In this document: positions 1,541 to 63,959 of the stretch, in pieces
Numbering within the stretch: position 1 is the first letter of the stretch
How the letters are laid out: each line of letters begins with the position of its first letter
Source of the DNA: Sipunculus nudus
Lineage: Eukaryota; Annelida; Sipuncula; Golfingiida; Sipunculidae
Reading direction: 5' to 3'
Assembly (NCBI GenBank): GCA_026874595.1
Contig: CM049313.1
Location: 40,142,659-40,206,658, forward strand
DNA length: 64,000 bases
Program-made: the position numbers and the translations under genes
Notes under the pieces: generated by a model
Seen by the model: the letters and a program-made list of their open reading frames with translations, nothing else
What the model was told of the DNA's origin: nothing
Database searches by the model: none

Positions 1541-1590
<50 letters not shown>

Positions 1591-1839: not shown

Positions 1840-1915
<76 letters not shown>

Positions 1916-4900: not shown

Positions 4901-6474
4901 AAAATGTTCAAGTCATATCCTTTTAAATATGGATGTTACGAGAATTGACATTTGTTTGAGATATATAGCTGATGCAGAATGGTGAATTTATATATACTGG
5001 TTTGAGCTCCTAGTTTAATGTATGTATGGACACTAATTCACGTGACGCCCTCGGTACCGACAAAAATATTCGAGGCTCAGTGAGACACTTGCGGTAAACG
5101 AGCTTCATAAAATGGCTTCGTCAGTGGAGGAATAAATTGGGTTAATCATTCATGCCTCGTGCTGCTCGTGTATGTAGATTAAATTAATGAAGGCTTTGGC
5201 CTTGGGACCGGAGAGCGTGCGAATGCTCTGACGTAACGCATGACATGATATAGTGCCTATATTTTCCACTATTGCGACGGAAATTTATACCATTATAAGG
5301 CATCATTATATCACAAATTGAATTCAAAGCATGATTTTACAACTGAAGGATGTCGGTTGTCCCTTAAAGAGGCCTATTCCGATATCTGAAGCCTATTGCC
5401 TTAGGATAATCCCTTGAACATTTCATAAAACAACAATCTCACTGAACACAGGCTGTTCATTTTGTTTATACACACCTGTTTATATTTGGTGGGAGCGTCC
5501 GCCAATTTATTTCAACCACACTCAACAAGGACATCTGGTGGCAAATCAGACGAACCAGAGTTTTCTAATGACGTTTTGAAATTAGTCACCTTTCAGCTTC
5601 CGCACGTATGCAACCAAACGCCTTCAGAATATTTTTGTTTGTCAATATAGGCGCATGTACCGTGTTTACTGACAGCTTGTAGATAATTTGATTCAGCTTT
5701 ACAAAGGCATTATAAGAACTTTATTCAGGTATTTGTACTTGCAGCAAGCGAACAGCAGGCTTTTAATAATAAAGCAAACCTAAGATTTCTTGAAATCCTG
5801 AAAATTGTTCGCTGCACATTTTATTTCCTCAATTGTCGTCACTGACGTCATTGTCCTTGACTTAATGTTCCTCAGAACTTCCATGCATGGCAGTGACGTC
5901 ATTATGAGGATGCCATTTGCTCTATGATGCCTGATTTGAAGTGTTCAAAATCTTGTTTGTCATTAAATGATATCAAAAGTTCTTGAAAATTTTAAATGTT
6001 AATTGTTAGTACATGGACCATAGGCGCGATCGATATATGTTTTGATTGATATATGTTGCATAGAGACATCAGAAATAATGGGGCGAATATGGCTGGATTC
6101 AGATTCACCTTTTGTAACCGTCTCAAAAGCTGAGCACTAGTTCTTGGTCCGTGTTTCCACAGCTTTCATCGGAACTCCTCGAGAACATGCATGGCCAAAC
6201 AAACAAACTCACAAACCATGTTGATCACATAGACCCGTCCACCAAGAAGAAGACTTTAAAAAAAAGATCCATTTTTACACGAGGTTGCAAGTTTTCCCAT
6301 AAAATAAGTAGAGCAGTTGAATGTAGATATCATTGATCTCAATAAACCGAAAAATATATGTTCTATTTTATTAAAGAAAATCAAATAGAAACCAATTCGG
6401 AATGATTCGTGTGAACAGTGAAACATTTTGTCGTATTTGTCATTCGTTAAAAAATACCAATTATTTGTTCAATT

Positions 6475-6528
<54 letters not shown>

Positions 6529-8718: not shown

Positions 8719-8772
<54 letters not shown>

Positions 8773-11700: not shown

Positions 11701-14700
11701 TGCATGAATGCCTCATATATTGCCTTGAATATTGATCATGACTAGTTATGTCAGTTCCCGAAAACTTGTGGCGGCACTTGTATTTTATCTATTTTTTCGA
11801 TAGTTTTATTATTTTGAGACCGTCAAATGACAGTTTATATGTCAATTTCTCGAGTATGGTTTCATTTAGTGTCCTGGAACCTGGTGTGTTTCTTGTTATG
11901 AATGGTTTCATCAGTTCCTGAAGATTGGTGGTGCCACCTGTATTTTCCATTTTCTTTTTCCCATTATTTTGAGACTGCCAAATTATATTGATACTATCAG
12001 ATTTACAATTGTGGTTTCATCGAATGTCCTGAAACCTTGTGTGTTATTTGGGCCCCGCTTGAATATGCGAATGCCCTGTAGTCATTACCTTGTCCGTCCG
12101 TCGGTCCATCTGTCCATCTGTTCCTCTTTCTGAATATATCCGTTAAATTTGTTTCCTGATTAGAACTCTAATTTGGATACACATCGATTTCAAACTTGAA
12201 GTATTTATGGCCCACTTCTAAAGCAAGAACTTTATAGATTTTTGGTTCATGAGGTCAAAGGTCAAGCTCACAGAACTAATAAAAAGATTGTGCATGCGAA
12301 ATTTCCATCTCAACCCTTCCATTTAATACAAATAGGTGGCCTGCAAACAGGAGATGAACCTGACTGATTTTGGGGTCACAAGGTCACAGTTGCCATCTGT
12401 CCACAAATTTGTTTCTGAATGATAACTCCAGGTTGGATCAACATATTGGTTTCAAACTTTGATTTATATACGGCCCACCACTAAAGTGAGAACCATTTTG
12501 ACTTTGGAGTCATGCGGTCAAAGGTCAAGGTCACAAGGACCCACACGTACACCTTTTAAAAGGACTTTGGATGCATTTTAAGCCAAACTTTTCATCCGAG
12601 ACCTTCTATCTTCCACATTTCGCTCACCAATAGTGCAAGAAATTTATGGATTTTGGGGTTACAAGGTCAAAGGTTAAGGTCACAGGGACCCTCAGTCCAC
12701 ATATTTGTTTCCAAATAATAACTCAAGTTATGGGTAATTGATATCAAACGTGTTCTGAATTGAAAATCGAAATTTTGTTTATTTTTTACCCTCTTATTTC
12801 AGTTACGGTGTTAAATTTAATGTAGGTTATCATACTTTGATAAGATCATCTTCACTTTCATCCTTGAAATAATTTACATCAATTTAAGCTGAGCGCCGTG
12901 ACCCACAGGTCCCTTGTTTTTTAAAGTTTACAATCTTAAAATCAATTTATCAGATAATATTAAAAAAAACTTTATAGAAGTTGTTGGTGTTGTAGTATCT
13001 GGTTACATTTATAAAATCCTCAATGCTGGCTGAAGGAAAGCGGACACAGCAGACGACGCAGTGCGCATACTCTTGGAAAATGTTTTTATATTCATTCATA
13101 ATGGACATGTACTTGCACACCACCGTTTTGTGACTAATACGCCCACCGTCATCTCATATCATTCCAGACGGCAGCTATTTCACGTACACAAGACACGAAC
13201 CAGTCGGTGTGTGCGGCCAGATCATCCCAGTAAGTGGAACTGTCACGTGACCACGGAGAACCAATCATAATCATACTCTTCGATTTAACTTAAAATTAAT
13301 CAATTTGATATTCCTGAATCCATAACATGCAACATGGGATATTTGATGTCCATATCACTAATTATTTTCCATTCGAAATATTGTGTATGCTTATTTATTT
13401 GATTAATAAATATAACGATTATACTAATGATATATTTTGAAAATCAAGTTTGAGAGTATAACCAAAATGTATGATAGTATTTATGAAAAAAAAAACAAAA
13501 AAAAAAAACGTAGTTCATTGTTTATCCTCCAGATGACAGCATTACATGATTTTATGAATGGTTTGTTTTTCACAGTGGAACTACCCGGTGGCCATGTTTG
13601 CGTGGAAGATCGCCCCGGCCCTCGCCTGTGGCTGTACAGTGGTGGTCAAACCAGCAGAACAGACACCTCTGACGGCCTTGTATATGGCACAGCTGTGCAA
13701 AGAGGTAAAATATACGTGCAGTCATGTTCTGATAGAATAAGAGCTAAGAAATAACATAATGAAAGACAAAAGTAATTCATACAGGACTTACTTATTTGGC
13801 CGATGTGCACTAATGCACTCTGACATAAAAATATCCTGAAATACGTGTAATTCAGTTATTGGTATTTGTTATATCAAATTTGTTCTACATGCACATATAA
13901 ATGAATTTATTTCAGTTAAGTTTACCCATAAATAACATTCAGTTACTATATACAGCATACTGTTTCCTGGATAAATAAACATGTATAATCCAATATTTCC
14001 CACCCTACACGCACTTAAAGGTTTTTTTTTAGATGCGATGTATTCCTTGACATAAATAAGGTCGGTTTCTCAGACACTGTCGATTTTGCCTGCTAACCTC
14101 CCATCAATAGTATTTATTTTTAAGTCGAAAATTACCGATTTTGAACTTCAGTCGCTCGGACATTTCTTTCAAGAAAATAAAAAAGTAAATGTTCGATATG
14201 ATTCCTTTTTGTTATACTGTGTTTTTATCTCTTTAGCAAAGCATTTTGTTATTATTATGTTGTCATATGAATTTTAAATCGTAAACCTACATTGAAAAGG
14301 ATAAAAAGGAAGAAAAATTCATTTATAAAAAATGCCTATGAAACCAACCTTTTTTGGCCTTATAATAACGGCAAAAATCAGAGTATTTAAATATTACTGA
14401 GTGTTAAATATTATTTCAACGTCCATGACGCACATCTTTCAGGCCGGCTTCCCTCCTGGCGTGTTGAATGTTGTCCCTGGGTACGGCCCCACAGCCGGCG
14501 GTGCGATTACAGCGCACCCTGACGTCAACAAGGTGGCATTCACCGGCTCCACTGAGGTAGGCGTCATCTGCTGGTACATAAAGAAACTGAAAGTTATTGG
14601 GATCGACACAAACTTAAGAAAAGGACTCTGTGAAAGATAAGAATCTGAAGTTTTGCAGTACAAGGTGTTTTATTAGAAAACAAAAGTTGATAGGCATCAG

Positions 14701-17700
14701 TGCGTTTTTCAGCCATTTACTTATTCTTGTATGAAACGCCATCCTAAAATAAAAACTGGAATATTTGCTGATTAGTGAAAGTATGCAATAAAATGTCATA
14801 CATATTACGGAAAATCATCTACACCTTAATTATCGTGACATTTGTGAAAGGTTCGACAATAAAATTGACAAACATGTCTCAATGTTATATCTATTATTTA
14901 TTTATTTATTCTTTTTTTTTTTTTGGGGGGGGGGGGGGGGCTCTGTCACTGTGAACTTTGTGTTTGCCGAATATATGTCATGGAAAAGACTTATACGTAT
15001 ATTTTGATGAAAATTTGAGGTTTAAAGACCCCTATGAACCGTTTAAATACCTAAAATTTAGCTGTGTTATTCAAAAGAAATGATAATTGGTCCAATGATT
15101 ACTGGCATGTATTACAAATCTTTAACTACCCTGTTCAGTGCAGATATATGTTATGTGCATTCATAATAATAGTAGTTATCATTTTGGGTAAATATAACTT
15201 AAAGTATCATAAATAATTTATTCTTTTTTTCAGGTTGGCAAGATAATCCAGCAAGCAGCGGGAGGCAGCAACCTGAAGAGGGTCACACTGGAGCTTGGCG
15301 GGAAAAGTCCGAACATCATCCTGGATGACGCTGATCGTACGTAAAACAAACACGCATGCGCACAGACATACTCCAGTTTCAATGAGCACAGTCTTGTGCA
15401 CATGTCGAGGAAAAATAACGTTCGCAAGAAAAATATTGATAAATTAATTCTGTATCTCGTATACATTGATTCTAGATGTGAAATAATAATTCTACATAAG
15501 AAAAACGAAATGGAAACAGATAGTGACTTGGCAGAGTTTCAGGAAAGTACCTCTCGGTTAATGCAGTTTGTCGGGTTTTGCAAGCGATACAGCTTCCCTG
15601 ATTTGTTTCTGTAATGTCGTTTTACAAATTAAAAGTTTCAAGGATATAATGCAGGAGAAACATACGACAGCCTATACATTTAATAAAGTCAATAACTTTA
15701 GATGAATTTCGGACTTGGATAGCTTAGTTATTTACCCGAGAGACAGGAGAATACACAGGAATGGCCATAGGAACACCCATGGCTTTTGTCGTGGTTTTAC
15801 TGATAACAGTGTGTGTACATTATCAAGCTTTCCATGCTTTTTCAGTTGACTGGGCGGTCGAGATGGCTCACCACGCCATCTTTTCCAACATGGGTCAGTG
15901 CTGTATCGCGGGGTCAAGGACGTTCGTTCAGGAAGGTATCTATGACGAGTTCGTCAAACGATCCAAGGAGCGCGCGCTGAAAAGAAAAGTCGGCGATCCA
16001 TGGAATATGTCAAGTGACTCGGGACCTCAGGTAATTTAAAGAAAGTCATGAATATTGATGAACTCCCAGGAATGTCTACTATGTCGCATTAATTTAAGCA
16101 TTGTCTGGTACTTTCATCACTGTCACGTTTGTGTGTGTAGATTTTACATAAATATATTCGTCACTATTACTGCTTTATTGTTTAAATTTTTGGTATTATG
16201 AAAAGTGTTTTTTTTTTTCACATGGTCAACGTGGTCATGATAGAATCTCCTGTAAACATTTGCTGTCTGTGTATGATTCGTTTGGAATTTGAATAACTCC
16301 TTTAATTAAAGTGGCTGTGTACATAATATACATTTAAATTACATGTACATTTGTAATAATATCGGTTTTAGAACATTTTGGCTGATTGCAAACGCTAATT
16401 AGGAAAGCCATCACGGCACATGGACTTGCAGTCTCCATTTATCTGGTTTATACATAGTTACGGATATTTGTGTGAGTAAACACCCTCGGCGTTCGTCTGT
16501 TTAACATAAATAACTGTGCGAAAATAGTTTTAGGCTTGAAAAATCTTTATAAAAGTGACGTTGCTTGGTAAGGCCAACATGTGGTGTGTGGACTATGTTT
16601 ATATATTTTCTCCTGGTGCAAGTTTATTTCTACTCGTGTACAGGTGTAGGCAAACGGTTCTAGAACGAAATATAAGGAGGTTCTTTAGTATTTAAAGGAG
16701 AAAACACGGTACTTCATGAATATTAAATAGACATGGTATTTGAATAGGTCCCTGTAACATAATGCAATACATACACGTATATTTACTTTAAGGTTGATGA
16801 GGAGCAGATGAACAAAATCCTAGATCTAATCAAGAGTGGCGTGGACCAGGGAGCCACGCTGACCTGTGGTGGGAAACGTGTCGGGGACAAGGGCTACTTC
16901 ATCGAGACCACCGTGTTCTCAGACGTCAAGGATGACATGCGCATTGCCAGGGAAGAGGTAGGTCAAAGGTTAGGGGACAAAAATAAAGGGAGGGAGAATC
17001 GTGAAATATCTGAACTACAAACGTCACAAGGGGCAACTAAAGGGATTGGAAATCACTAAATATCTGAGCTAAAAGGTCACAAGCGGAAACAAAAGGGAGA
17101 GAAAATCACTAAATATCTTAGCTGAAAGGTCACAGGAGGAAAATAAATGGAGAGAGAATCGTGAAATATCTAAGCTAAAAAGGTTAAAAGGGGAAACTAT
17201 AAGAGGGACAACCACTAAATATCTGAGCTAAAATGGTCACAGGAGGAAAATAAAGGGAGGGATAATCACTAAATATCTACGTTCTTTGCAGAATGATTGG
17301 CATAAGTGGACAAGCATTGATGGGTCTCGTTTATTAATGCTTGTATGTTTGACTTAGAATGCTTGATATACTAAAACTGAATCTGCGCGCATCTTTATTT
17401 GTATTTTAAGAAGCCTTAAAATATTTCTCTTTAAAAAATGAGATTTAACAGTTCATTCTACTTTTCTAAGGTGCATATTTGTTCTTCACAATGACATATG
17501 ATGTTTTATATAGAATGATATACAATTAATTTGTATATATTAAACACAATAAAAGAGATATAATGATCCATTTGTTGAAGAGACTGCTGAACATGTTCTC
17601 CACCCTAGAATCTGGTACATGAAATATTGTTATATTTTATTATCTAACAGATATTCGGACCAGTGATGCAGATCTTCAAGTTCAAGACGATAGAAGAGGT

Positions 17701-19699
17701 TTTGGAGAGAGCTAACGACACTAACTACGGCCTAGGTGGCGCTGTATTCACAAAAGACATCGACAAGGCTTTGATGATCTCAAATGCCATCAGAGCCGGG
17801 ACCGTGTGGTGAGCAAACCATTCATAGCCAACTTGTAGAAGTGAAAATGTACTCGAGTACTCGAGGCCGAGTAATTCTAACCGAGTACTCGGATCCCAAA
17901 GCAGGACTCCAGTACTGGCACAGGCCAACATTTCTTTAAAACCTATTCTTCAAGTAGATATCAATTATGGCTGTATATTTATTACTGTCAAACATGATTA
18001 ACTGCGCTTGAACATTGAAGTAACCCTTTACTGAAGGCAGAGCCAGGCCATATGGTAGTAATGAACTGCTTAGGCGGAGTTCTGCGCTCAGTGAGGCTTT
18101 TCTAGTTTCAAATGTAATGGCAATAAAATAAGTTGAGTACTTGAGTCTGAATAGGTATTAACTATCGAGTACTCGAGAGCAAAAGTCGCTTTACATTACA
18201 GCACTAGCTGTGTATTATTCTAAAATGTTAAGCCATCATAATTATTCAAATATTCTCCTAAATTGCTGAACAGTTTTAAACAATTTAAATTTGTCAGTTT
18301 TAGGGTATTTGCTTAAAAAATTTACTTGGAGATTCTTCATTTAAAGGTACAGGAAAACATGCAAGACCTTTAAATAAAATGAACTTGTTTTATTTCTATT
18401 TATTAAAAATAATTTGCAAAAAAGAAACAATTTAAAGTCAATAAGTTATGATGAATCATTATATGCTCTCAGTTCAAACTACCTTAAAGTATTTAATCTC
18501 CATTTTCTTCAGGATTAATGATTACAACAGAACTTTTCCCCAAGCTCCTTTTGGGGGCTTCAAGGAATCTGGAATGGGGCGTGAACTGTGAGTATGCAAC
18601 TTAACTCTGACCTCTTGTATGTGAAATATTAATTGTATATTTAAAGATTTATACACGATAACAGTGAACTTAAAATATGATTAGTAAATTAATATTCAAA
18701 TCAGATGAAAAGGAATGTGACTATATATCCATGAGTCTAAACACTGTTAGGTCAAAAAAAGGTATGGTTTTCAGACATTTTTCAGAAAACAGTGCGGGCG
18801 GGAGGGGTATTTTATAACCTTTTTTGTATGTTTCGATAAAAGTGTCATGATCAGGGAAAAGCATTATAAAAACATTTTTTTCTATACAGGTAAAAGCAGT
18901 ATATAATAAAGGAAAACTTACCAAATTGTATGATTTAATTTCTTGAAAGATTAAAAACAAAATAAACATTTTTGATGCTCGTGGTTAAAATTGACGCGGG
19001 CGGTGCATGAGAACATTACCTTTTATTTTTTTGGCCTTAAGCTTTCTTAATAGGAATAATTGATGAGTCATGTTGCTTGCGCAACATAAAGTGTATCAGT
19101 TTAAATAATCATGGATATTATGCTTTGGATTAAGAATTGTTTCAGTTACAAATGCGTCTGTGGATCATTAATCAATGCTGTCTTGTTTACTTGCAGCGGT
19201 TCTTATGGACTTCAGCAGTACACGGAGGTTAAAACAGTAAGTCACGCTCGTTTACTCCGGCTCTCATCCTGCTTTCTTCGTAATGGTGGATCAGCGTTCA
19301 ATTATTCTCCTGACAGGAATGGTGCCTTACAAAATTTTAATTTAGTCAGCGGGTATAAAACAAAATAATATATCGCTCGTCGATATTACAAACCCGAACA
19401 CTCAGTTCATTCAATGCCACTAGGTTTCACTATTATGCGAAGTGATAGGTCTGTCAACACTAATGAAATATATCTATACTTATTACAAAATGTATTTCAA
19501 AGATTTCCACTTATTGTCGTCTCGAATGTTTCGCATTTCGCCTTTTTTTACACAGGATTTACAAAAGGTTCTTAGATGGGAGATACGTATGTATAAATAC
19601 ATATATTTCATCGACATGAAAAAAAAAATAAATCATTATCATAAAACATGTAATTTACTAACACAGGTGACGGTGAGGATCCCACAGAAGAACTCATAA
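763..19699 (+). CDS. ALDH1A-like: Aldehyde dehydrogenase, cytosolic ALDH1A/ALDH2-like, copy 1 (14 exons, complete)
   Basis: NAD(P)+-dependent oxidation of aldehydes (retinal, acetaldehyde or lipid aldehydes) to acids. Exons: 763-810, 9227-9331, 10810-10950, 11294-11423, 13168-13229, 13576-13704, 14443-14556, 15234-15336, 15846-16030, 16793-16957, 17651-17808, 18513-18587, 19197-19236, 19667-19699. All junctions are GT-AG and every phase closes, giving 495 codons, the usual class 1/2 length. Key residues, in an ungapped register five below ALDH2: WNYP Asn164, VVVKPAEQT Lys187, FTGSTEVG Rossmann loop 239-245, LELGGK Glu263, GQCC nucleophile Cys297, EEIFGP Glu394/Phe396, PFGG 459-462. The short N terminus has no mitochondrial presequence, so a cytosolic tetramer is expected. 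The start is the ATG in an AACCATGG context, shared with copy 2. ALDH1A versus a mollusc-specific ALDH1/2 lineage needs a tree. At the channel mouth it has WINDYN and Thr454 where ALDH2 has WVNCYD and Phe459. Confidence 0.95.
1535..1650 (+). repeat. TA microsatellites in intron 1, copy 1
   Basis: Two TA runs separated by ATTTTTATACACTTAAT. Counterparts lie in copy 2 near 38560-38645. Confidence 0.9.
1804..1914 (+). repeat. TAATA / TA microsatellite
   Basis: TAATA pentamers passing into a long TA run. The apparent reading frame through it on the - strand is only a Tyr-Ile repeat. Confidence 0.9.
6480..6523 (+). repeat. TA microsatellite
   Basis: Pure TA run. The equivalent in copy 2 is 49197-49230. 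Confidence 0.9.
7102..7153 (+). repeat. Imperfect hairpin in intron 1, copy 1
   Basis: GGTTTCAAATTTGCG pairs with CGCGAAATTTAAACC around a loop holding GGTCGCTCTCTGACC. The same structure is at 50692-50743 in copy 2. Confidence 0.6.
8722..8764 (+). repeat. TA microsatellite
   Basis: Pure TA run in intron 1. The corresponding place in copy 2 (about 52115-52130) has only a short remnant. Confidence 0.9.
9227..9331 (+). CDS. ALDH1A-like: ALDH copy 1 exon 2
   Basis: 35 codons, residues 17-51, [12 protein letters not shown] to VQEGDK. It contains the conserved INP turn (Pro37). Acceptor TTGTAG, donor AAG|GTAAGA; the minisatellite begins at this donor. Confidence 0.95.
9332..10725 (+). repeat. 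Splice-donor-containing minisatellite, intron 2 of copy 1
   Basis: About 50 imperfect monomers of 26-29 bp in direct orientation. The consensus carries AAGGTAAGACCAGAGG followed by GTAGATAATTAT. The first monomer includes the authentic exon 2 donor. Most monomers keep GGTAAGACC or a one-base variant. The array ends at ATTATGCTAGCTTTTCC, about 85 bp before exon 3. Confidence 0.95.
10810..10950 (+). CDS. ALDH1A-like: ALDH copy 1 exon 3
   Basis: 47 codons, residues 52-98, containing [15 protein letters not shown], a typical class 1/2 N-terminal helix region. Phase 0 at both ends. Confidence 0.95.
11294..11423 (+). CDS. ALDH1A-like: ALDH copy 1 exon 4
   Basis: Residues 99-141 plus one base, [11 protein letters not shown] to GQTIPV, with RYYAGWADK. 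Residues 113-122 correspond to the ALDH2 substrate-channel lip (ALDH2 Val120 and Met124 equal Gly115 and Phe119 here). Confidence 0.95.
11565..12030 (-). repeat. Diverged dispersed repeat, shared with intron 1 of copy 2
   Basis: Read on the - strand it carries motifs such as GGTGGCACCACCAATCTTC followed by AGGAACTGATGAAAC, and a TCTCCATGGAAACCTGAAA-like block on +. The reverse complements of the same blocks recur several times at 45150-46470. Confidence 0.6.
12055..12720 (+). repeat. Dispersed repeat with TCCGTCCGTC head and AGGTCAAAGGTCA boxes
   Basis: Three diverged copies of a unit with the same order of motifs: TTTGTTTCtgaat, 'ataactc', a 'caaactt' block, 'ggcccac', 'tttatgga/tttttgg', then a direct-repeat box ending GGTCACA. 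The pattern resembles a repeat common in bivalve genomes (from memory). Its function is unknown. Confidence 0.6.
12252..12264 (+). promoter_or_regulatory. Perfect DR1 nuclear-receptor-type site (in repeat)
   Basis: AGGTCA-A-AGGTCA, the textbook DR1 for RXR, HNF4 or PPAR-type receptors. Related boxes occur at 12515-12533 (CGGTCA-A-AGGTCA-AGGTCA) and 12664-12682 (AGGTCA-A-AGGTTA-AGGTCA). Sequence match only; occupancy is unknown. Confidence 0.35.
13168..13229 (+). CDS. ALDH1A-like: ALDH copy 1 exon 5
   Basis: Completes Asp142 and encodes residues 143-162, [20 protein letters not shown], the strand leading to the catalytic Asn164. Donor CCA|GTAAGT. Confidence 0.95.
13230..13575 (+). other. Intron 5 of copy 1
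   Basis: 346 bp, AT-rich, with an A-rich tract around 13487-13509 before the acceptor. Nothing else seen. Confidence 0.85.
13576..13704 (+). CDS. ALDH1A-like: ALDH copy 1 exon 6
   Basis: 43 codons, residues 163-205. Holds WNYP with oxyanion-hole Asn164, channel residue Trp172, and VVVKPAEQT with cofactor-binding Lys187. Phase 0 at both ends. Confidence 0.96.
13705..14442 (+). other. Intron 6 of copy 1
   Basis: 738 bp, AT-rich. No repeat or coding signal recognised. Confidence 0.8.
14443..14556 (+). CDS. ALDH1A-like: ALDH copy 1 exon 7
   Basis: 38 codons, residues 206-243, [15 protein letters not shown] to VAFTGSTE. Contains the first part of the GSTEVG NAD-binding loop. Confidence 0.96.
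14557..15233 (+). other. Intron 7 of copy 1, with a T/G homopolymer junction
   Basis: 677 bp with a poly-T run followed directly by about 17 G at 14912-14940. Otherwise unremarkable. Confidence 0.8.
15234..15336 (+). CDS. ALDH1A-like: ALDH copy 1 exon 8
   Basis: Residues 244-277 plus one base. Contains [11 protein letters not shown] with general-base Glu263. The donor is C|GTACGT: joining to exon 9 gives DADLDW, which fixes this choice over the GTAAAA four bases downstream. Confidence 0.95.
15337..15845 (+). other. Intron 8 of copy 1
   Basis: 509 bp, no repeat or coding signal recognised. Confidence 0.8.
15846..16030 (+). CDS. ALDH1A-like: ALDH copy 1 exon 9 (catalytic cysteine)
   Basis: Residues 278-339, including [16 protein letters not shown] with the nucleophile Cys297 (second cysteine of the pair) and IYDEFVKRS. 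Donor CAG|GTAATT. Confidence 0.96.
16031..16792 (+). other. Intron 9 of copy 1
   Basis: 762 bp. Nothing recognised beyond short T-rich runs. Confidence 0.8.
16793..16957 (+). CDS. ALDH1A-like: ALDH copy 1 exon 10
   Basis: 55 codons, residues 340-394, [16 protein letters not shown] to MRIAREE, ending with Glu394 (ALDH2 Glu399, ribose contact). Phase 0 at both ends. Confidence 0.96.
16962..17281 (+). repeat. Minisatellite (53-60 bp unit, ~6 copies) at the exon 10 donor
   Basis: Six diverged direct repeats, each running from GTCACAAGG/GTCAAAGG through a purine-rich stretch to AAATATCTGAGCTAAAA. The first unit starts four bases after the exon 10/intron boundary. Unrelated in sequence to the intron 2 array. 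Confidence 0.9.
17651..17808 (+). CDS. ALDH1A-like: ALDH copy 1 exon 11
   Basis: Residues 395-446 plus two bases, [13 protein letters not shown] to IRAGTV. Phe396 completes the EEIFGP motif. Donor TG|GTGAGC; Trp447 is split across the intron. Confidence 0.96.
17809..18512 (+). other. Intron 11 of copy 1, with GAGTACTCGA palindromes
   Basis: 704 bp. The palindrome GAGTACTCGA or close variants recur near 17850-17900 and 18130-18180, bracketing about 230 bp. This is possibly the ends of a small inverted-repeat element, but no target duplication was identified. Confidence 0.6.
18513..18587 (+). CDS. ALDH1A-like: ALDH copy 1 exon 12
   Basis: Residues 447 (split) to 471, [20 protein letters not shown] then MGRE. 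Holds the PFGG motif and the C-terminal edge of the substrate channel (Asn452, Thr454, Phe460). Confidence 0.95.
18588..19196 (+). other. Intron 12 of copy 1
   Basis: 609 bp, AT-rich, nothing recognised. Confidence 0.8.
19197..19236 (+). CDS. ALDH1A-like: ALDH copy 1 exon 13
   Basis: Completes Leu472 and encodes [13 protein letters not shown], the conserved C-terminal oligomerisation strand region. Donor ACA|GTAAGT. Confidence 0.94.
19237..19666 (+). other. Intron 13 of copy 1
   Basis: 430 bp, nothing recognised. Confidence 0.8.
19667..19699 (+). CDS. ALDH1A-like: ALDH copy 1 exon 14 (stop codon)
   Basis: [10 protein letters not shown] then TAA, matching the typical class 1/2 C terminus ending QKNS. 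Confidence 0.95.
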   Translation: MTVRIPQKNS

Positions 19700-36213: not shown

Positions 36214-36220
36214 AATACTT
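36105..36220 (-). pseudogene. Gypsy nucleocapsid zinc knuckles
   Basis: Two cysteine clusters: CKYCGNRHQKGNG (last Cys missing, stop codon shortly after) and CTHCNIHQNHFAEMC, a CX2C...HX4C knuckle. These bound element RNA in Gag. Confidence 0.65.
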
Positions 36221-52200: not shown

Positions 52201-55200
52201 ATTTAAATCTTTGGAAAAATCCAAAATTCCCAAGACGTTTTTTGAATATGTTCCGGAGGTTTGCAGAGTAAAGGGTATTATACGAACTATCAACGCATAT
52301 TTAATAAGAAAAAATAATTTATCTTTACATTAGTGCAACAAATATACAACATTTATAAAAACTGTTTTAAGTGAACCATTATATGCTATTTACAGGAAGT
52401 ATCCGTGTTATGATTTGTGTAAGTTTTTGGAATCGCTAAATAGGGCAACTGGAAACTGCAAACATCATGCTCCTCTTTTAGTGATGGAGTCACCTGCTGC
52501 TACATTATAAACTGTCATTTATTTTGCGAAAATAAAACTTATTGGTTTCACAATAACATATGTACAGTTTTCAACAACTTCGTGTTGTAGATCTTCATTA
52601 ACAATGAGTGGGTGAACTCTGAGAGCGGCAAGACCTTCCCGACCATCAACGCTTGTACAGGCGAGAAGATAATCGATGTCCAGGAAGGGGACAAGGTAAG
52701 ACCAGAGGGTAGATAGAGGCTAGGATCAGAGATAGATAATTATAAGGTAAGACCAGAGGTAGATAATTATAAGGTAAGACCAGAGATAGATAATTATAAG
52801 GTAAGAGGTAAGACCAGAGGTAGATAATTATAAGGTAAGACCAGAGGTAGACAATCATAAGGTAAGACCAGAGATAGATAATTATAAGGTAAGAGGTAAG
52901 ACCAGAGGTAGATAATTATAAGGTAAGAATAGAGGGTAGATAATTATAAGGTATGACCAAAGGGTAGATATTTACAAGGTCAGACCAGAGATTTGATAAT
53001 TATACGGTCAGACCAGAGGAAGATAATTATAAGGTTAGACCAGAGGAAGATAATTATAAGGTCAGACCAGAAGAAGATAATTATAAGGTAGGACCAGAGG
53101 TAGATAAGTTTAAGGTAAGACTAGAGTGTAGAAAATTATAAGGTAAGACCAGAGGGTAGATAATTATAAAGTAAGACCAGATGTAGATAATTATAAGGTT
53201 AGACGGGATGTGGTTTTTATAAGGTAAGACTCGAGTGTAGATATTTATAAGGTAAGGCCAGAAGGTAGTTAATTAAAAGGTAAGACCGGAGGTATAGAAT
53301 TATAAGGTAAGACCGGATTTATATAATTATAAGGTAAGACCAGGGTTTGATAATTATAAGGTATAACCAAAGGTGGATAATTTTAACGTATAACCAGAAG
53401 TAGAAAATAATAAGGTAAAAGCAGAGGTAGATACTTATAAGGTAAGAATAGAGGGTAGATAATTATAAGGTATGACCAAAGGGTAGATATTTATAAGGTC
53501 AGACCAGAGGTTTGATAATTATAAGGTCAGACCAGAGGAAGATAATTATAAGGTTAGACCAGAGGAAGATAATTATAAGGTAGGACCAGAGGTAGATAAT
53601 TATAAGGTAAGACTAGAGTGTAGAAAATTATAAGGTAAGACCAGAGGGTAGATAATTATGAAGTAAGACCAGAGGTAGATAATTATAAGGTAAGACGGGA
53701 TGTGGTTTTTATAAGGTAAGACTCGAGTGTAGATATTTATAAGGTAAGGCCAGAGGGCAGTTAATTAAAAGGTAAGACGGGAGGTATATAATTATAAGGT
53801 AAGACCGGATTTATATAATTAGAAGGTAAGACCAGGGTTAGATAATTATAAGGTATAACCAAAGGTGGATAATTATAACGTATAACCAGAGGTAGATAAT
53901 AATAAGGTAAAAGCAGAGATAGATACTTATAATGTAAGACGAGAGGGTAGATAATTATAAGGTAAGACTAGAGGGCAGATAATTATAAGATAAGACCAGA
54001 GGTAGATAATTATAAGGTAAGGCCATAGGATAGATAATTATAAGGTAAGACCAGAGGTAGATAAACGTAAAATAAGACCAGACGTAGAAAATTATAAGGT
54101 AAACCCAGAGGTAGATAATTATATGGTAAAACCAGAGGTAGATTATTATAAGGGAAGACCAGAGGGAAGATAATTATAAGGTAAAACCAGCAGGGTTGGG
54201 GTAATTGTAATGTGTAATTGTAATTACCTGTAATTAATTACATTTTTTAAAGTAATTGAATGTAATTTGTAATTGAACAAAATTTAATTACAAGTAATTG
54301 TAATTGTAATAATTACAAGGGTAAAAATGGGTGTAATTTAAAAAAATTTTCAATGACTTTCTAATTACTATCCAAATTCATGACAGAGCACCATACCTGT
54401 TACCTCCTTCCTTTGCATTGTTTATCAAAACACTTGGTAAGGATTGTTAGCTATGATTATTGAATAAATAGTACTTTTGCATGTAATAAACATGGTAATT
54501 TATTAGTATGCCTTTTAAGTTATACTGGCCTTTTTAATTTGCGAATACCTCCACTGCAATGTAGATAAAGTGACAAGCTTCCATAATGTACACCTGTCCA
54601 CAGCTTCACTACAACAAGTGTGGGCTTGCTACATTTCATACTTTTACTGAAATGGAGACTGGTTTATCTGCTAATTAGCTGACACTGAGAGAGTCACAGG
54701 AAGAAAAGAGGCTAATGATTTAGGAAAGGCTGATATCAGAATTACCTCAAGTCAGTGGCCCATGAGGTAAATAGAGATAGGTATCAAGATAGCAGGGCAG
54801 TCTCAGTTGGCTTGCTCTAACATTGAAGAGTCTCCACTGTTTCCTGTGCCCAGAGACTCTGGGCATTGTGTACTGGTTTTACTCTCTGTCATACATAATT
54901 AAGAAGCTAACCATGGTGAATGCACTTGATTTTCATTACCTGTTCCGATAAATAATTTCATTAGATCAAATTGTAATATATTATGTATTCAGGATGAATA
55001 TATTTATATGAATTATTCATATGAAATGTTTGCATTAATGAGTTTAGTGAAATCACATTGTATTTAAAATTCCAGTATTTGTGACATAACTTTAATCAGC
55101 ATTGATAGTAAAGAAATTAGGATTTATGAGTTGATTTATGTGTAGGATTACAATATAGGATTAAGGTAGTCGCTAAAAAGGTTTTTCCATCAAAAGTTTG

Positions 55201-58200
55201 AACCAACAATTATCTACTCGGCACTAACTGGCACATGCCAGTGTTATCAAGCATGAAATTATGTCAAATAAAGGATAATATGTGATAAAAGAATATTAAA
55301 TGAACCTCTTTTGCACAAATGACTTCAAGATAATATGTTTAAAATATAGTTTACCCATTTGTACTTTCAGATATTTCTATTTTGTGTCAAAACGCTTATT
55401 CAGCAAATGCCTGATACTATAAAGAATACACGCTATGTTCATACATGATGATGACAGCCATTTTTGCCTTTCCATGAAAGAAAAGTGTAAACTTGAACAT
55501 TATGAAATGATATATTATCATTAGTATAGCCATTGTGCACTTTAAATTATGACACCAGACTGGATATGTTTTGTTTGCAGTTTTTCCTCTTATAAATTTA
55601 TCAATTGGCCTTTCTACCATGAATGGTACTGTACATGAACCATTCCTCCGTATATATATATTTTTTATAAAGTAATTGAAAGTAATTAATTACTTTTCAA
55701 AAGTAATTGTAATGTTATCATTACTTTGTAATATGTAAGCAATTTGTACTTGTAATTGTAATTGGGATTTTTTTAAGTAATTGTAATTGTAATGATTACT
55801 TTTCAATGTAATTGGCCCCCACCCTGAAGACCAGATGGGCAGATTATTATAAGGTAAGACCAGAGGGTAGATAATTATAAGGTTAGTCTAGAGGTAGCTT
55901 ATTATAAAGTGAGAATCGAAGGTAGATAATTATAAGGTCAGACCAGATGGTAGATAATTATAAGGTAAGATTCGAGGATAGATGATAATAAGCTGAGACC
56001 AGAAGGTAGATAATTATAAGGTAAGACCGGAGGTCGATGATTATAAAGTAAGACCAGAGGTAGATAATAATAAGGAAGACCAGAGGTTTGATAATTATAA
56101 GGTCAGACCAGAGATTTGATAATTATAAGGTCAGACCAGAGGAAGATAATTATAAGGTTAGACCAGAGGAAGATAATTATAAGGTTAGACCAGAAGAAGA
56201 TAATTATAAGGTAGGACCAGAGGTAGATAATTTTAAGGTAAGACTAGAGTGTAGAAAATTATAAGGTAAGACCAGAGGGTAGATAATTATAAAGTAAGAC
56301 CAGAAGTAGATAATTATAAGGTAAGACGGGATGTGGTTTTTATAAGGTAAGACTCGAGTGTAGATATTTATAAGGTAAGGCCAGAAGGTAGTTAATTAAA
56401 AGGTAAGACCGGAGGTATAGAATTATAAGGTAAGACCGGATTTATATAATTATAAGGTAAGACCAGGGTTAGATAATTATAAGGTATAACCAAAGGTGGA
56501 TGATTTTAACGTATAACCAGAGGTAGAAAATAATAAGGTAAAAGCAGAGGTAGATACTTATAAGGTAAGAATAGAGGGTAGATAATTATAAGGTATGACC
56601 AAAGGGTAGATATTTATAAGGTCAGACCAGAGGTTTGATAATTATAAGGTCAGACCAGAGGAAGATAATTATAAGGTTAGACCAGAGGAAGATAATTATA
56701 AGGTAGGACCAGAGGTAGATAATTATAAGGTAAGACTAGAGTGTAGAAAATTATAAGGTAAGACCAGAGGGTAGATAATTATGAAGTAAGACCAGAGGTA
56801 GATAATTATAAGGTAAGACGGGATGTGGTTTTTATAAGGTAAGACTCGAGTGTAGATATTTATAAGGTAAAGCCAGAGGGCAGTTAATTAAAAGGTAAGA
56901 CGGGAGGTATATAATTATAAGGTAAGACCGGATTTATATAATTAGAAGGTAAGACCAGGGTTAGATAATTATAAGGTATAACCAAAGGTGGATAATTATA
57001 ACGTATAACCAGAGGTAGATAATAATAAGGTAAAAGCAGAGGTAGATACTTATAATGTAAGACGAGAGGGTAGGTAATTATAAGGTAAGACTAGAGGGCA
57101 GATAATTATAAGATAAGACCAGAGGTAGATAATTATAAGGTAAGGCCATAGGATAGATAATTATAAGGTAAGACCAGAGGTTTGATAATTATAAGGTCAG
57201 ACCAGAGGAAGTGAATAATAAGGTTAGATCAGAGATAGATAATTATAAAGTAAGACTTGAGGTAGATAATTATAAGGTGAAACCAGAGGTAGATAAACGT
57301 AAAATAAGACCAGACGTAGAAAATTATAAGGTAAACCCAGAGGTAGATAATTATATGGTAAAACCAGAGGTAGATTATTATAAGGGAAGACCAGAGGGAA
57401 GATAATTATAAGGTAAAACCAGCAGGGTTGGGGTAATTGTAATGTGTAATTGTAATTACCTGTAATTAATTACATTTTTAAAAGTAATTGAATGTAATTT
57501 GTAATTGAACAAAATTTAATTACAAGTAATTGTAATTGTAATGATTACAAGGGTAAAAATGGGTGTAATTTAAAAAAGTTTTCAATGACTTTCTAATTAC
57601 TATCCAAATTCATGACAGAGCACCATACCTGTTACCTCTTTCCTTTGCATTGTTTATCAAAACACTTGGTAAGGATTGTTAGCTATGATTATTGAATAAA
57701 TAGTACTTTTGCATGTAATAAACATGGTAATTTATTAGTATGCCTTTTAAGTTATACTGGCCTTTTTAATACGCGAATACCTCCACTGCAATGTAGATAA
57801 AGTGACAAGCTTCCATAATGTACACCTGTCCACAGCTTCACTACAACAAGTGTGGGCTTGCTACATTTCATACTTTTACTGAAATGGAGACTGGTTTATC
57901 TGCTAATTAGCTGACACTGAGAGAGTCACAGGAAGAAAAGAGGCTAATGATTTAGGAAAGGCTGATATCAGAATTACCTCAAGTCAGTGGCCCATGAGGT
58001 AAATAGAGATAGGTATCAAGATAGCAGGGCAGTTTCAGTTGGCTGGCTCTAACATTGAAGAGTCTCCACTGTTTCCTGTGCCCAGAGACTCTGGGCATTG
58101 TGTACTGGTTTTACTCTCTGTCATACATAATTAAGAAGCTAACCATGGTGAATGCACTTGATTTTCATTACCTGTTCCGATAAATAATTTCATTAGATCA

Positions 58201-61200
58201 AATTGTAATATATTATGTATTCAGGATGAATATATTTATATGAATTATTCATATGAAATGTTTGCATTAATGAGTTTAGTGAAATCACATTGTATTTAAA
58301 ATTCCAGTATTTGTGACATAACTTTAATCAGCATTGATAGTAAAGAAATTAGGATTTATGAGTTGATTTATGTGTAGGATTACAATATAGGATTAAGGTA
58401 GTCGCTAAAAAGGTTTTTCCATCAAAAGTTTGAACCAACAATTATCTACTCGGCACTAATTGGCACATGCCAGTGTTATCAAGCATGAAATTATGTCAAA
58501 TAAAGGATAATATGTGATAAAAGAATATTAAATGAACCTCTTTTGCACAAATGACTTCAAGATAATATGTTTAAAATATAGTTTACCCATTTGTACTTTC
58601 AGATATTTCTATTTTGTGTCAAAACGCTTATTCAGCAAATGCCTGATACTATAAAGAATACACGCTATGTTCATACATGATGATGACAGCCATTTTTGCC
58701 TTTCCATGAAAGAAAAGTGTAAACTTGAACATTATGAAATGATATATTATCATTAGTATAGCCATTGTGCACTTTAAATTATGACACCAGACTGGATATG
58801 TTTTGTTTGCAGTTTTTCCTCTTATAAATTTTATCAATTGGCCTTTCTACCATGAATGGTACTGTACATGAACCATTCCTCCGTATATATATATTTTTTA
58901 TAAAGTAATTGAAAGTAATTAATTACTTTTCAAAAGTAATTGTAATGTAATCATTACTTTGTAATATGTAAGCAATTTGTACTTGTAATTGTAATTGGGA
59001 TTTTTTTAAGTAATTGTAATTGTAATGATTACTTTTCAATGTAATTGGCCCCCACCCTGAAGACCAGGTGGGCAGATTATTATAAGGTAAGACCAGAGGG
59101 TAGATAATTATAAGGTTAGTCTAGAGGTAGCTTATTATAAAGTGAGAATCGAAGGTAGATAATTATAAGGTCAGACCAGATGGTAGATAATTATAAGGTA
59201 AGATTCGAGGATAGATGATAATAAGCTGAGACCAGAAGGTAGATAATTATAAGGTAAGACCGGAGGTCGATGATTATAAAGTAAGACCAGAGGTAGATAA
59301 AAATAAGGAAGACCAGAGGTTTGATAATTATAAGGTCAGACCAGAGATTTGATAATTATAAGGTCAGACCAGAGGAAGATAATTATAAGGTTAGACCAGA
59401 GGAAGATAATTATAAGGTTAGACCAGAAGAAGATAATTATAAGGTAGGACCAGAGGTAGATAATTTTAAGGTAAGACTAGAGTGTAGAAAATTATAAGGT
59501 AAGACCAGAGGGTAGATAATAATAAAGTAAGACCAGAAGTAGATAATTATAAGGTAAGACGGGATGTGGTTTTTATAAGGTAAGACTCGAGTGTAGATAT
59601 TTATAAGGTAAGGCCAGAAGGTAGTTAATTAAAAGGTAAGACCGGAGGTATAGAATTATAAGGTAAGACCGGATTTATATAATTATAAGGTAAGACCAGG
59701 GTTAGATAATTATAAGGTATAACCAAAGGTGGATAATTTTAACGTATAACCAGAGGTAGAAAATAATAAGGTAAAAGCAGAGGTAGATACTTATAAGGTA
59801 AGAATAAAGGGTAGATAATTATAAGGTATGACCAAAGGGTAGATATTTATAAGGTCAGACCAGAGGTTTGATAATTATAAGGTCAGACCAGAGGAAGATA
59901 ATTATAAGGTTAGACCAGAGGAAGATAATTATAAGGTAGGACCAGAGGTAGATAATTATAAGGTAAGACTAGAGTGTAGAAAATTATAAGGTAAGACCAG
60001 AGGGTAGATAATTATGAAGTAAGACCAGAGGTAGATAATTATAAGGTAAGACGGGATGTGGTTTTTATAAGGTAAGACTCGAGTGTAGATATTTATAAGG
60101 TAAGGCCAGAGGGCAGTTAATTAAAAGGTAAGACGGGAGGTATATAATTATAAGGTAAGACCGGATTTATATAATTAGAAGGTAAGACCAGGGTTAGATA
60201 ATTATAAGGTATAACCAAAGGTGGATAATTATAACGTATAACCAGAGGTAGATAATAATAAGGTAAAAGCAGAGGTAGATACTTATAATGTAAGACGAGA
60301 GGGTAGATAATTATAAGGTAAGACTAGAGGGCAGATAATTATAAGATAAGACCAGAGGTAGATAATTATAAGGTAAGGCCATAGGATAGATAATTATAAG
60401 GTAAGACCAGAGGTTTGATAATTATAAGGTCAGACCAGAGGAAGTGAATAATAAGGTTAGATCAGAGATAGATAATTAAAAAGTAAGACTAGAGGTAGAT
60501 AATTATAAGGTGAAACCAGAGGTAGATAAACGTAAAATAAGACCAGACGTAGAAAATTATAAGGTAAACCCAGAGGTAGATAATTATATGGTAAAACCAG
60601 AGGTAGATTATTATAAGGGAAGACCAGAGGGAAGATAATTATAAGGTAAAACCAGCAGGGTTGGGGTAATTGTAATGTGTAATTGTAATTACCTGTAATT
60701 AATTACATTTTTAAAGTAATTGAATGTAATTTGTAATTGAACAAAATTTAATTACAAGTAATTGTAATTGTAATGATTACAAGGGTAAAAATGGGTGTAA
60801 TTTAAAAAAGTTTTCAATGACTTTCTAATTACTATCCAAATTCATGACAGAGCACCATACCTGTTACCTCCTTCCTTTGCATTGTTTATCAAAACACTTG
60901 GTAAGGATTGTTAGCTATGATTATTGAATAAATAGTACTTTTGCATGTAATAAACATGGTAATTTATTAGAATGCCTTTTAAGTTATACTGGCCTTTTTA
61001 ATTTGCGAATACCTCCACTGCAATGTAGATAAAGTGACAAGCTTCCATAATGTACACCTGTCCACAGCTTCACTACAACAAGTGTGGGCTTGCTACATTT
61101 CATACTTTTACTGAAATGGAGACTGGTTTATCTGCTAATTAGCTGACACTGAGAGAGTCACAGGAAGAAAAGAGGCTAATGATTTAGGAAAGGCTGATAT

Positions 61201-63959
61201 CAGAATTACCTCAAGTCAGTGGCCCATGAGGTAAATAGAGATAGGTATCAAGATAGCAGGGCAGTCTCAGTTGGCTGGCTCTAACATTGAAGAGTCTCCA
61301 CTGTTTCCTGTGCCCAGAGACTCTGGGCATTGTGTACTGGTTTTACTCTCTGTCATACATAATTAAGAAGCTAACCATGGTGAATGCACTTGATTTTCAT
61401 TACCTGTTCCGATAAATAATTTCATTAGATCAAATTGTAATATATTATGTATTCAGGATGAATATATTTATATGAATTATTCATATGAAATGTTTGCATT
61501 AATGAGTTTAGTGAAATCACATTGTATTTAAAATTCCAGTATTTGTGACATAACTTTAATCAGCATTGATAGTAAAGAAATTAGGATTTATGAGTTGATT
61601 TATGTGTAGGATTACAATATAGGATTAAGGTAGTCGCTAAAAAGGTTTTTCCATCAAAAGTTTGAACCAACAATTATCTACTCGGCACTAATTGGCACAT
61701 GCCAGTGTTATCAAGCATGAAATTATGTCAAATAAAGGATAATATGTGATAAAAGAATATTAAATGAAACTCTTTTGCACAAATGACTTCAAGATAATAT
61801 GTTTAAAATATAGTTTACCCATTTGTACTTTCAGATATTTCTATTTTGTGTCAAAACGCTTATTCAGCAAATGCCTGATACTATAAAGAATACACGCTAT
61901 GTTCATACATGATGATGACAGCCATTTTTGCCTTTCCATGAAAGAAAAGTGTAAACTTGAACATTATGAAATGATATATTATCATTAGTATAGCCATTGT
62001 GCACTTTAAATTATGACACCAGACTGGATATGTTTTGTTTGCAGTTTTTCCTCTTATAAATTTTATCAATTGGCCTTTCTACCATGAATGGTACTGTACA
62101 TGAACCATTCCTCCGTATATATATATATTTTATAAAGTAATTGAAAGTAATTAATTACTTTTCAAAAGTAATTGTAATGTAATCATTACTTTGTAATATG
62201 TAAGCAATTTGTAATTGTAATTGTAATTGGGATTTTTTTAAGTAATTGTAATTGTAATGATTACTTTTCAATGTAATTGGCCCCCACCCTGAAGACCAGA
62301 TGGGCAGATTATTATAAGGTAAGACCAGAGGGTAGATAATTATAAGGTTAGTCTAGAGGTAGCTTATTATAAAGTGAGAATAGAAGGTAGATAATTATAA
62401 GGTCAGACCAGATGGTAGATAATTATAAGGTAAGATTCGAGGATAGATGATAATAAGCTGAGACCAGAAGGTAGATAATTATAAGGTAAGACCGGAGGTC
62501 GATGATTATAAAGTAAGACCAGAGGTAGATAATAATAAGGAAGACCAGAGGTTTGATAATTATAAGGTCAGATCGGGGGTAGATAATTATAAGGTAAGAT
62601 CATAGATAATTATAAGGATAGATCAGAGGTCGAAGATTGTAAAATAAGACCAGAGTTGATAATTATAAGGTAAGACCGGAGGTAGATAATTAAGAGGTAA
62701 GACCGGAGTTATATAATTATAAGGTAAGATCAGAGGGGTGATGATTAACAGGAAAGACAAGATGGTAGAAAATTATAACGTAAGACTAGAGGGTAAATAA
62801 ATATAGGGTTAGACCAGAGGGGTGATAATTATAAGGAAAGACAAGAGGGTAGATAATAATTAAGTATTACCAGAGGGTAGATTATTATAAGATAAGATAT
62901 GAGGGAGATATTTATAAAATAAGACCAGAGGTAGATAATTATAAGGTAAGACCAGAGGGTATGACCAGAGGGTAGATAATTATAAAATAAGACCAGAGGT
63001 CAATGATTATAAAGTAAGACCAGAGGAAGATAATTATAAGGTAAGACCATAGGGTATATAATTATGAGGTAAGACCAGAGGGCAGTTAATTATAAGGTAA
63101 GACCAGAGGGCAGATAATTAAAAAGTAAGACCAGAGGGTAGATGATTAAGGTAAGACAAGAGGGTAGATAATTATAAGGTGAGACCAGAGGTAGATAATT
63201 ATAAGGGAAGATCAGATGTTTTATAATTATACTAGCTTTTTCCTGCGCCGATCTGTTGTGTTTTGTTGGCTGATGACAATATGATGTCCAGCTTATGACA
63301 CTTCTCTTACACTAGGCCGATGTGGATAAAGCCGTCGCTGCTGCCAAGGAAGCTTTCAAGATTGGGTCAACATGGCGGACAATGGACGCCTCCGCCAGAG
63401 GGCGCCTCCTTAACAAGCTAGCCGATTTGATGGAGCGAGACCTTGTTTACTTGGCGGTAAGTGAACACACTAGATAGACACTGCACGAGTGTAATTTTCT
63501 CTGACGTTTCCATAGACATATACTATCAGTTTTTCATGACATATCTTATACTGAGATTCTAGGGACAGCATATTCTGGTAACAATTTTCGGTTGATGAGG
63601 ATTTATTGGTCATCAGTAACTTGAATTCATTGTATTGTAGAATTAAGTATCACTTGAAAAAGATACTTAGAATATGATACCCCCTGGGAGCAGACCACAC
63701 AAGGTGGCTTGAAGAAATTCAATTTATACACCTCAGCATGAAATATCTTAACACTTATTATTTTTTATGTGCCAACCATGACTAGCACAAAACAAGACAA
63801 GCTGTCTCTTGCTTTTTTTGGCCTCACAGAGTCTGGAGACGCTGGATAACGGCAAGCCGTTTAAGGACGCATATAACGTCGACATCCCGTTCAGTGTGGA
63901 CGTGATCCGCTACTACGCAGGATGGGCAGACAAAATAGTCGGCCAGACCATCCCTGTCG
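37799..63959 (+). CDS. ALDH1A-like: Aldehyde dehydrogenase, ALDH1A-like copy 2 (exons 1-4, runs off the window)
   Basis: Tandem paralogue of the gene at 763. Exons 37799-37846, 52591-52695, 63316-63456 and 63830-63959 have the same lengths, phases and splice sites as exons 1-4 of copy 1; the remaining ten exons lie beyond the right edge. Over 141 shared codons I count 19 synonymous changes and 7 amino-acid changes: V5E, P37A, F113Y, Y114N, G115V, G121V, N122D. Exon 3 has six synonymous and no replacement changes, so purifying selection looks active and nothing is broken. The change cluster in exon 4 lies at the substrate-channel lip. The introns hold a LINE and a large higher-order repeat. 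Same expected reaction and cytosolic location as copy 1, possibly with altered substrate preference. Confidence 0.92.
38602..38645 (+). repeat. TA microsatellite
   Basis: Pure TA run in intron 1 of copy 2. A G run of about 16 lies upstream at 38371-38386. Confidence 0.9.
40500..40660 (-). pseudogene. LINE C-terminal zinc-binding tail, degenerate
   Basis: A segment reading [15 protein letters not shown] on the - strand matches the second half of the CxxC...HLFxxC...W tail. The leading cysteines are lost. Confidence 0.5.
41500..42700 (-). pseudogene. LINE reverse transcriptase domain (broken)
   Basis: Motifs on the - strand: [17 protein letters not shown] near 42055-42110, [14 protein letters not shown] then INNG near 41960-42010, and [12 protein letters not shown] near 41770-41800 (SDDT in place of the usual YADDT). 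Interrupted by stops and by a 109-bp internal duplication (42289-42487). Confidence 0.8.
42289..42487 (+). repeat. Local 109-bp-offset direct duplication inside the LINE
   Basis: 90 bp at 42289-42378 repeat almost exactly at 42398-42487 (ATATAGATTTAATAGAGATC start), separated by a T-rich linker. Confidence 0.9.
42900..43980 (-). pseudogene. LINE endonuclease domain (broken)
   Basis: Motifs on the - strand: [10 protein letters not shown] near 43950, [16 protein letters not shown] near 43870-43920, NVLVGGDLI near 43580 (normally GGDFN), and [11 protein letters not shown] near 43290-43320 (SDH motif). This is the apurinic-type endonuclease that nicks target DNA for L1-like elements. Confidence 0.8.
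43981..45149 (+). other. AT-rich DNA with TA arrays
   Basis: Possible LINE 5' part; no ORF1 recognised. Contains TA runs at 44608-44671 and 44887-44910. Confidence 0.5.
45150..46475 (+). repeat. Diverged tandem repeats, dispersed family
   Basis: Four or five units of about 250-330 bp sharing the blocks AGTTAGAAGATTCTGGG, TTTGTGCCCTG, ACAGATGACCACATC and TTTAAAGGTCTCAAA, and an AACTGATGAAAC-like block. G runs occur at 45340-45358 and 45920-45935. The reverse complement of this family is at 11565-12030. Confidence 0.75.
49197..49230 (+). repeat. TA microsatellite
   Basis: Orthologous in position to the run at 6480 in copy 1. Confidence 0.9.
50692..50743 (+). repeat. Hairpin in intron 1, copy 2
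   Basis: GGTTTCAAATTCGCG pairs with CGCGAAATTGAAACC, 14 of 15 positions, with an inner GGTC/GACC pairing. Counterpart of 7102-7153; the pairing is better here. Confidence 0.6.
52591..52695 (+). CDS. ALDH1A-like: ALDH copy 2 exon 2
   Basis: 35 codons identical to copy 1 except P37A (INACTGEK), with three silent changes. Donor AAG|GTAAGA identical to copy 1. Confidence 0.95.
54191..55826. mobile_element. Non-autonomous hAT-like element, copy A
   Basis: 1636 bp. Termini CAGGGTTGGGG and, reversed, CAGGGTGGGGG (CAGGG is typical of hAT). Flanked by AAAACCAG and AAGACCAG, an 8-bp target duplication with one mismatch, derived from the minisatellite. Subterminal regions are dense in GTAATTGTAATTAC-type motifs in both orientations. 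No transposase. The ~62-codon open frame on the - strand near 55417-55620 is not credible as a gene. Confidence 0.85.
57423..59059. mobile_element. Non-autonomous hAT-like element, copy B
   Basis: 1637 bp, about 99% identical to copy A by eye, with the same termini and the same flanking bases. Carried by the 3.23-kb higher-order repeat, not by separate transposition. Confidence 0.88.
60656..62291. mobile_element. Non-autonomous hAT-like element, copy C
   Basis: 1636 bp, nearly identical to copies A and B, with the same flanks. Differs at scattered single bases. Confidence 0.88.
63316..63456 (+). CDS. ALDH1A-like: ALDH copy 2 exon 3
   Basis: 47 codons with the same protein as copy 1 exon 3; six silent differences. 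Donor GCG|GTAAGT. Confidence 0.95.
63457..63829 (+). other. Intron 3 of copy 2
   Basis: 373 bp, aligned with intron 3 of copy 1 (10951-11293, 343 bp), with a short insertion around 63678-63705 (CCCCCTGGGAGCAGACCAC). Confidence 0.85.
63830..63959 (+). CDS. ALDH1A-like: ALDH copy 2 exon 4
   Basis: [19 protein letters not shown] to GQTIPV plus one base, with five amino-acid changes from copy 1 between residues 113 and 122. Donor G|GTGAGT; the window ends 41 bases later. Confidence 0.95.

Follow-up and report, generated by a model that had tools for sequence, protein, structure and literature searches.

A donor-anchored minisatellite in intron 2 of two tandem ALDH1A-like genes

Minisatellite-like tandem repeats of an exon-intron boundary, many of whose units carry splice signals, have been described in amphioxus as mirages, in Adh3, troponin C and the globins BflGb6 and BflGb9, with similar repeats in PGBD5 (PMC3087553, PMC3902484; PGBD5 and troponin C were added by PMC3902484). 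The passages of these papers drawn on here describe mirages in cephalochordates, give Adh3 units of 10-72 bp and report no interference with regular splicing (PMC3087553, PMC3902484). The human Alzheimer's risk gene ABCA7 holds a VNTR of 25-bp units in intron 18, the first GT of which is the exon 18 donor; according to the excerpts of that study, arrays range from 298 to 10678 bp, an isoform retaining one unit amounts to 2 ± 1% independently of VNTR length, and in-frame skipping of exon 19 increases with VNTR length (PMC5954066). A 31-bp VNTR in human CBS is named c.1444_1467+7 (PMC2630376), a name implying a unit made of 24 coding bases and the first seven of the intron, across the donor. No further donor-anchored repeat was recognised among the literature matches listed, which consisted of titles and abstract openings and had subscription papers mostly outside them, and we claim no absence. 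The donor-anchored minisatellite is thus already known as a kind, and the ALDH1A-like case described here is a new, large example. Amphioxus mirages and the ABCA7 VNTR, for which the passages seen give no link to each other, are brought together here as having the same anatomy.

The window, that is, the whole 64 kb stretch of DNA analysed, has a G+C content of 35% and holds two tandem plus-strand genes, both encoding ALDH1A-like aldehyde dehydrogenases. Joining the 13 exons of copy 1 gives an open frame of 487 codons, of whose product residues 1-339 have retinal dehydrogenase 2 as best PDB match (E 5.5e-163); exons 1-4 of copy 2 are visible before the window ends. Over these four exons the copies differ by a dN of 0.02 and a dS of 0.25, so both look constrained. 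Rfam (gathering threshold) and tRNA scans of the window returned no matches.

763..19242, plus strand: ALDH1A-like gene copy 1; 13 exons found, last end approximate, stop codon not reached
763-810, 9227-9331, 10810-10950, 11294-11423, 13168-13229, plus strand: copy 1 exons 1-5
13576-13704, 14443-14556, 15234-15336, 15846-16030, 16793-16957, plus strand: copy 1 exons 6-10
17651-17808, 18513-18587, 19197-19242 (end approximate), plus strand: copy 1 exons 11-13
9227..9331, plus strand: exon 2 of copy 1, ending in AAG at the donor
52591..52695, plus strand: exon 2 of copy 2
10810..10950, plus strand: exon 3 of copy 1, 141 nt, in-frame skippable
63316..63456, plus strand: exon 3 of copy 2, 141 nt, in-frame skippable

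Intron 2 lies in phase 0 after the Lys codon of EGDK in both copies, and much of it is filled by a minisatellite with a unit of 27-28 bp. As the first-pass annotation had noted, the array begins at the exon 2 donor and its monomer repeats the donor 9-mer AAG/GTAAGA: wrap-around alignment placed the first monomer on the donor itself, at 9329 in copy 1 and 52693 in copy 2, with the last three exon bases AAG inside it (9329-9331 and 52693-52695) and with a degraded second monomer in copy 2. Tandem Repeats Finder located this unit at 9329-10725 (copy 1) and at 52727-54190, 55827-57422, 59074-60655 and 62292-62961 (copy 2), with related rows to 63231. The span 52696..63231, which had been taken for one array, actually consists of four blocks, between which lie three non-minisatellite inserts, each about 1.6 kb long. 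Counting partial units, there are 50 monomers in copy 1 and 55, 59, 59 and 36 in blocks A-D (about 209 in copy 2), and the arrays measure 1397 bp in copy 1 and 5622 bp in total in copy 2, lengths read from one sequence. The copy 2 array is further organised in 492-bp higher-order units. Outside gaps, blocks B and C are 96.5% and 97.0% identical to A, C is 99.5% identical to B, and A is 84% identical to the copy 1 array. Downstream of the array, both introns end in 84 nt of non-repeat sequence, identical at 75 positions. The result is a pair of paralogous introns of very different size (1,478 nt in copy 1 versus 10,620 nt in copy 2) between nearly identical exons.

9329..10725, plus strand: donor-anchored minisatellite of copy 1, about 50 monomers; 13 decoys scoring at least as high as the true donor
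10726..10809, plus strand: non-repeat end of intron 2, copy 1; holds the exon 3 acceptor
52693..54196, plus strand: array block A of copy 2, opening with the true donor; 26 decoys that equal or outscore it
54197..55826, plus strand: insert T1, with hAT-like ends CAGGGTTGGGG...CCCCACCCTG and flanks AAAACCAG/AAGACCAG; boundaries approximate
55827..57422, plus strand: array block B of copy 2; 22 decoys that equal or outscore the true donor
57423..59073, plus strand: insert T2, 99.4% identical to T1 outside gaps
59074..60655, plus strand: array block C of copy 2; 23 decoys that equal or outscore the true donor
60656..62291, plus strand: insert T3, 99.5% identical to T2 outside gaps
62292..63231, plus strand: array block D of copy 2, the block least like the other three; 11 decoys that equal or outscore the true donor
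63232..63315, plus strand: non-repeat end of intron 2, copy 2; holds the exon 3 acceptor

These arrays resemble mirages in being minisatellite-like and in beginning at a splice boundary, but their share of the exon is at most three bases, and the copy 2 array is very large (about 209 monomers) and carries inserts and a block duplication. Their likeness to the ABCA7 VNTR is that the unit carries the true donor and that the next exon is in-frame skippable, as exon 3 (141 nt) is here; the ABCA7 unit, in contrast, lies in a C-rich region, and length polymorphism and RNA were measured there, whereas the present case is read from sequence alone. The CBS unit differs in being mostly exonic and present in 16-21 copies, and decoy donors were not found mentioned in the parts of that paper seen (PMC2630376). 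Our preferred reading, to which we give a probability of roughly 0.8, is that the ALDH1A-like arrays are donor-anchored intronic minisatellites like the amphioxus mirages and the ABCA7 VNTR, and that their extra donors are by-products that are not kept as donors. The 35% G+C of the window is lower than is usual for Branchiostoma, so amphioxus is no more than a lead for its source; a different source would widen the known range of mirages.

The suggestion that the array was seeded by duplication of the donor is well supported though not proved. The phase of the array in both copies, the shared AAG and a second donor-anchored array in the same gene all point to it, and no match to the monomer better than E 0.87 was found elsewhere in the window. 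Sharing between exon and array is limited to AAG (positions -3 to -1; the exon 2 alignments start at -3), and three bases do not prove a duplication across the boundary, since AAG could precede the GT by chance. The short overlap is also what can be said for coincidence, in which an unrelated minisatellite reached the exon and its monomer held a donor-like 9-mer by chance; we consider this the least probable of the readings weighed here, because the exact phase recurs in both copies, the monomer has no counterpart elsewhere in the window, copy 1 holds another donor-anchored array, and decoy strength tends to fall with distance from the 5' end (most clearly in copy 1, not in block D). Under the preferred reading, we infer that a short stretch whose first base lay at the exon 2 donor, or three bases ahead of it, underwent tandem duplication, and that slippage or unequal exchange carried the array across intron 2 while the ALDH gene was still single. 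An array at the same donor in both genes probably predates the gene duplication, although later gene conversion could also have made the arrays common to both.

16958..17278, plus strand: second donor-anchored array, copy 1 intron 10; 53-bp unit, unrelated to the first, without strong donors

The anchoring of this second array was assessed in a scan of 15 of the 16 donors in the window (the intron after copy 2 exon 4, which leaves the window, was set aside), covering at most 2.5 kb per intron against a null of 200 first-order Markov resamples. Two of the 12 donors tested in copy 1 anchor an array; the exon 9 donor of copy 1 was borderline (6 of 200 resamples) and is left out of this count. The best alignment of the intron 10 array with the exon 10 donor region starts at +2, and none of its nine GT sites reaches the score of the exon 2 donor (maximum 3.2, eight below zero), so that only one of the two arrays yields decoys. 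Two donor-anchored arrays, one of them without decoys, point to a mutational tendency at donors instead of selection for decoys, two cases being few.

How many decoys the arrays supply depends on the strength demanded of them. All donor scores depend on the weight matrix used, under which the window's 16 donors range from -1.2 to 6.2 and that of exon 2, at 6.01, is among the highest. Leaving out the true donor, exact copies of the 9-mer number 8 in copy 1 and 23, 20, 20 and 10 in blocks A-D (73 together). Sites that equal or exceed the true donor's score number 13 in the copy 1 array and 82 in A-D, with one more in insert T2. In 200 mononucleotide shuffles of A-D such sites averaged 3.5 and never exceeded 10; the same blocks read on the minus strand give none, and the remaining 51.9 kb of plus strand has four, one of which is the copy 2 exon 3 donor. 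Outside the arrays the exact AAGGTAAGA occurs on neither strand of the 64 kb window. By duplex energy with U1 (-8 kcal/mol or lower), 93 sites qualify in blocks A-D and 19 in the array of copy 1. The first-pass figures of about two hundred potential U1 sites in copy 2 and dozens in copy 1 hold in the loose sense, as the GT is kept in 180 of 201 donor-phase monomers of copy 2 (true donor included) and in 44 of 50 of copy 1, but the full-strength sites come to only about 82 and 13. The locus offers a natural test bed for how the spliceosome chooses the first among dozens of equal donors.

Decoys are not thinned out near the true donor, and purging was rejected: strong decoys, if anything, lie nearer the 5' end, with a correlation between decoy strength and distance of rho -0.37 (p 0.01) in copy 1, of -0.24, -0.25 and -0.22 in A, B and C (p 0.07-0.10) and of 0.02 in D. 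In copy 1 the very next monomer holds an exact donor copy at 9357, 28 nt downstream of the true donor, and such unpurged full-strength decoys close downstream are odd if mis-splicing is costly. Nor did predicted accessibility consistently hide the decoy 9-mers in copy 1 and block A, the exact decoys being more open than the true donor in 1 of 8 and 16 of 23 cases, respectively.

Retention of the repeated donors for U1 would be expected to leave GTAAG more conserved than its surroundings in the monomer, an excess that no block showed. Identity to the consensus at +1 to +5 was 0.86 versus 0.92 for columns 10-27 in copy 1, and 0.88-0.89 versus 0.89-0.90 in A-D. For the whole 9-mer AAGGTAAGA, identity slightly exceeded that of columns 10-27 in A, B and C (0.90-0.91 versus 0.89-0.90), equalled it in D and fell short of it in copy 1 (0.86 versus 0.92). 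A window-rank test was run on copy 1, A and D (49, 53 and 31 monomers), leaving out B, C, the true-donor monomers and monomers of fewer than 24 columns. In copy 1, the donor 9-mer came last of 27 nine-column windows for intactness, GTAAG came 22nd of 27 five-column windows, and the GT dinucleotide came 5th. The corresponding ranks were 10th, 14th and joint first (49 of 53) in A, and 18th, 20th and 20th in D. Selection against the decoys was considered because of a higher mutation frequency in the donor columns of copy 1 (0.147 versus 0.078, p 0.02) and was rejected, as copy 1 is the only one of the three blocks tested to show the signal, A and D lacking it, and the monomers cannot be treated as independent.

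These ranks bear directly on the proposal that the array is a functional decoy field that recruits U1 along a long intron and so suppresses premature polyadenylation or helps to define exon 2. The proposal gains from the concentration of full-strength sites (82 in A-D against four in the rest of the window), from the well-kept GT of block A, from the marginally better kept 9-mer of A-C, and from U1 suppression of intronic polyadenylation, which is described in published abstracts. We nevertheless judge it very unlikely, because neither the 9-mer nor GTAAG stands out among the windows of the monomer, and because the two introns 1, at 8.4 and 14.7 kb, are nearly without such sites (one of the window's other four). 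Polyadenylation hexamers argue the same way, occurring at 1.2-3.2 per kb in the arrays and at 2.2-3.0 per kb in other stretches (one of which includes exons), with no consistent enrichment or depletion in the arrays, as does the intron 10 array, which sits at a donor and has no strong donors of its own. The decoy role suggested by the first-pass annotation, whether as U1 titration, polyadenylation suppression or a shift in donor choice, is not supported.

The same annotation's remark that the array has few pyrimidine tracts and supplies donors without acceptors was borne out by a simple test. Acceptor-like sites were called at 10-12 of 20 pyrimidines before NYAG, an initial cut-off of 14 of 20 having missed some real acceptors; real acceptors have 12-17 of 20 pyrimidines in the 14 of 15 checked (the copy 1 exon 10 acceptor was left out). 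Even at 10 of 20, the five array blocks hold no acceptor-like site, and the two introns 1 hold 13.5-13.7 per kb. Reading through the exon 2 donor meets a stop codon at intron nt 19-21 in both copies, so exon 2 extended to any decoy would end prematurely. Insert sequences T1-T3 each hold four acceptor-like sites (at least 12 pyrimidines), 450-1251 nt upstream of the next strong donor, and this arrangement makes cryptic exons possible.

The stop codon and the insert acceptors could be taken to mean regulated non-productive splicing, with decoys diverting transcripts into stop-containing mRNA and thereby tuning ALDH dose, more so in copy 2. The excerpts on ABCA7 lend this some analogy, in that the one-unit isoform brings a stop and such transcripts rose under a block of NMD, but they also give that isoform as independent of VNTR length (PMC5954066). 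As GTAAG lacks excess conservation as well, we regard such regulation as quite improbable.

On our preferred reading, that of an array whose donors are by-products, splicing would most likely still take place at the first donor, because extension of exon 2 runs into the stop codon and because the array offers the later donors no upstream acceptor with which to define an exon of their own. By analogy with ABCA7, the likely effect of the array would be passive: a low level of splicing errors into the monomers that follow, and some loss of exon 3, in frame, at a rate that grows as the array lengthens. Skipping of exon 3, which at 141 nt in both genes would keep the frame, is predicted to be more frequent in copy 2 and is the first thing to look for.

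The growth of the copy 2 array would have followed a course of its own: formation of the 492-bp higher-order units, a hAT-like insertion, and then a recent duplication of array plus insertion. Judged from their ends alone, T1-T3 resemble a hAT-type element inserted into the array, with flanks AAAACCAG/AAGACCAG of 8 bp. The identity of 99.4-99.5% among T1-T3, together with that of 99.5% between B and C, suggests that array plus insert was duplicated recently or is an assembly repeat, and the near-identity could be partly an assembly effect. A broader extrapolation, which we hold to be unlikely, is that mirages represent a general route of intron growth beyond cephalochordates and mammals, through donor-seeded minisatellites that persist through gene duplication, and that in copy 2 the array and the transposon acceptors together yield poison exons, exon 3 skipping and an ALDH1A-like output set by array length.

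Elsewhere in the window, the minus strand at 33588-36228 holds open stretches that resemble pieces of a Ty3/gypsy-type polyprotein. A separate 15-bp minisatellite (GGACAATTACCCCCC) occurs at 31923-32137 and 32719-32928 in opposite orientation, forming inverted arms that are about 90% identical.
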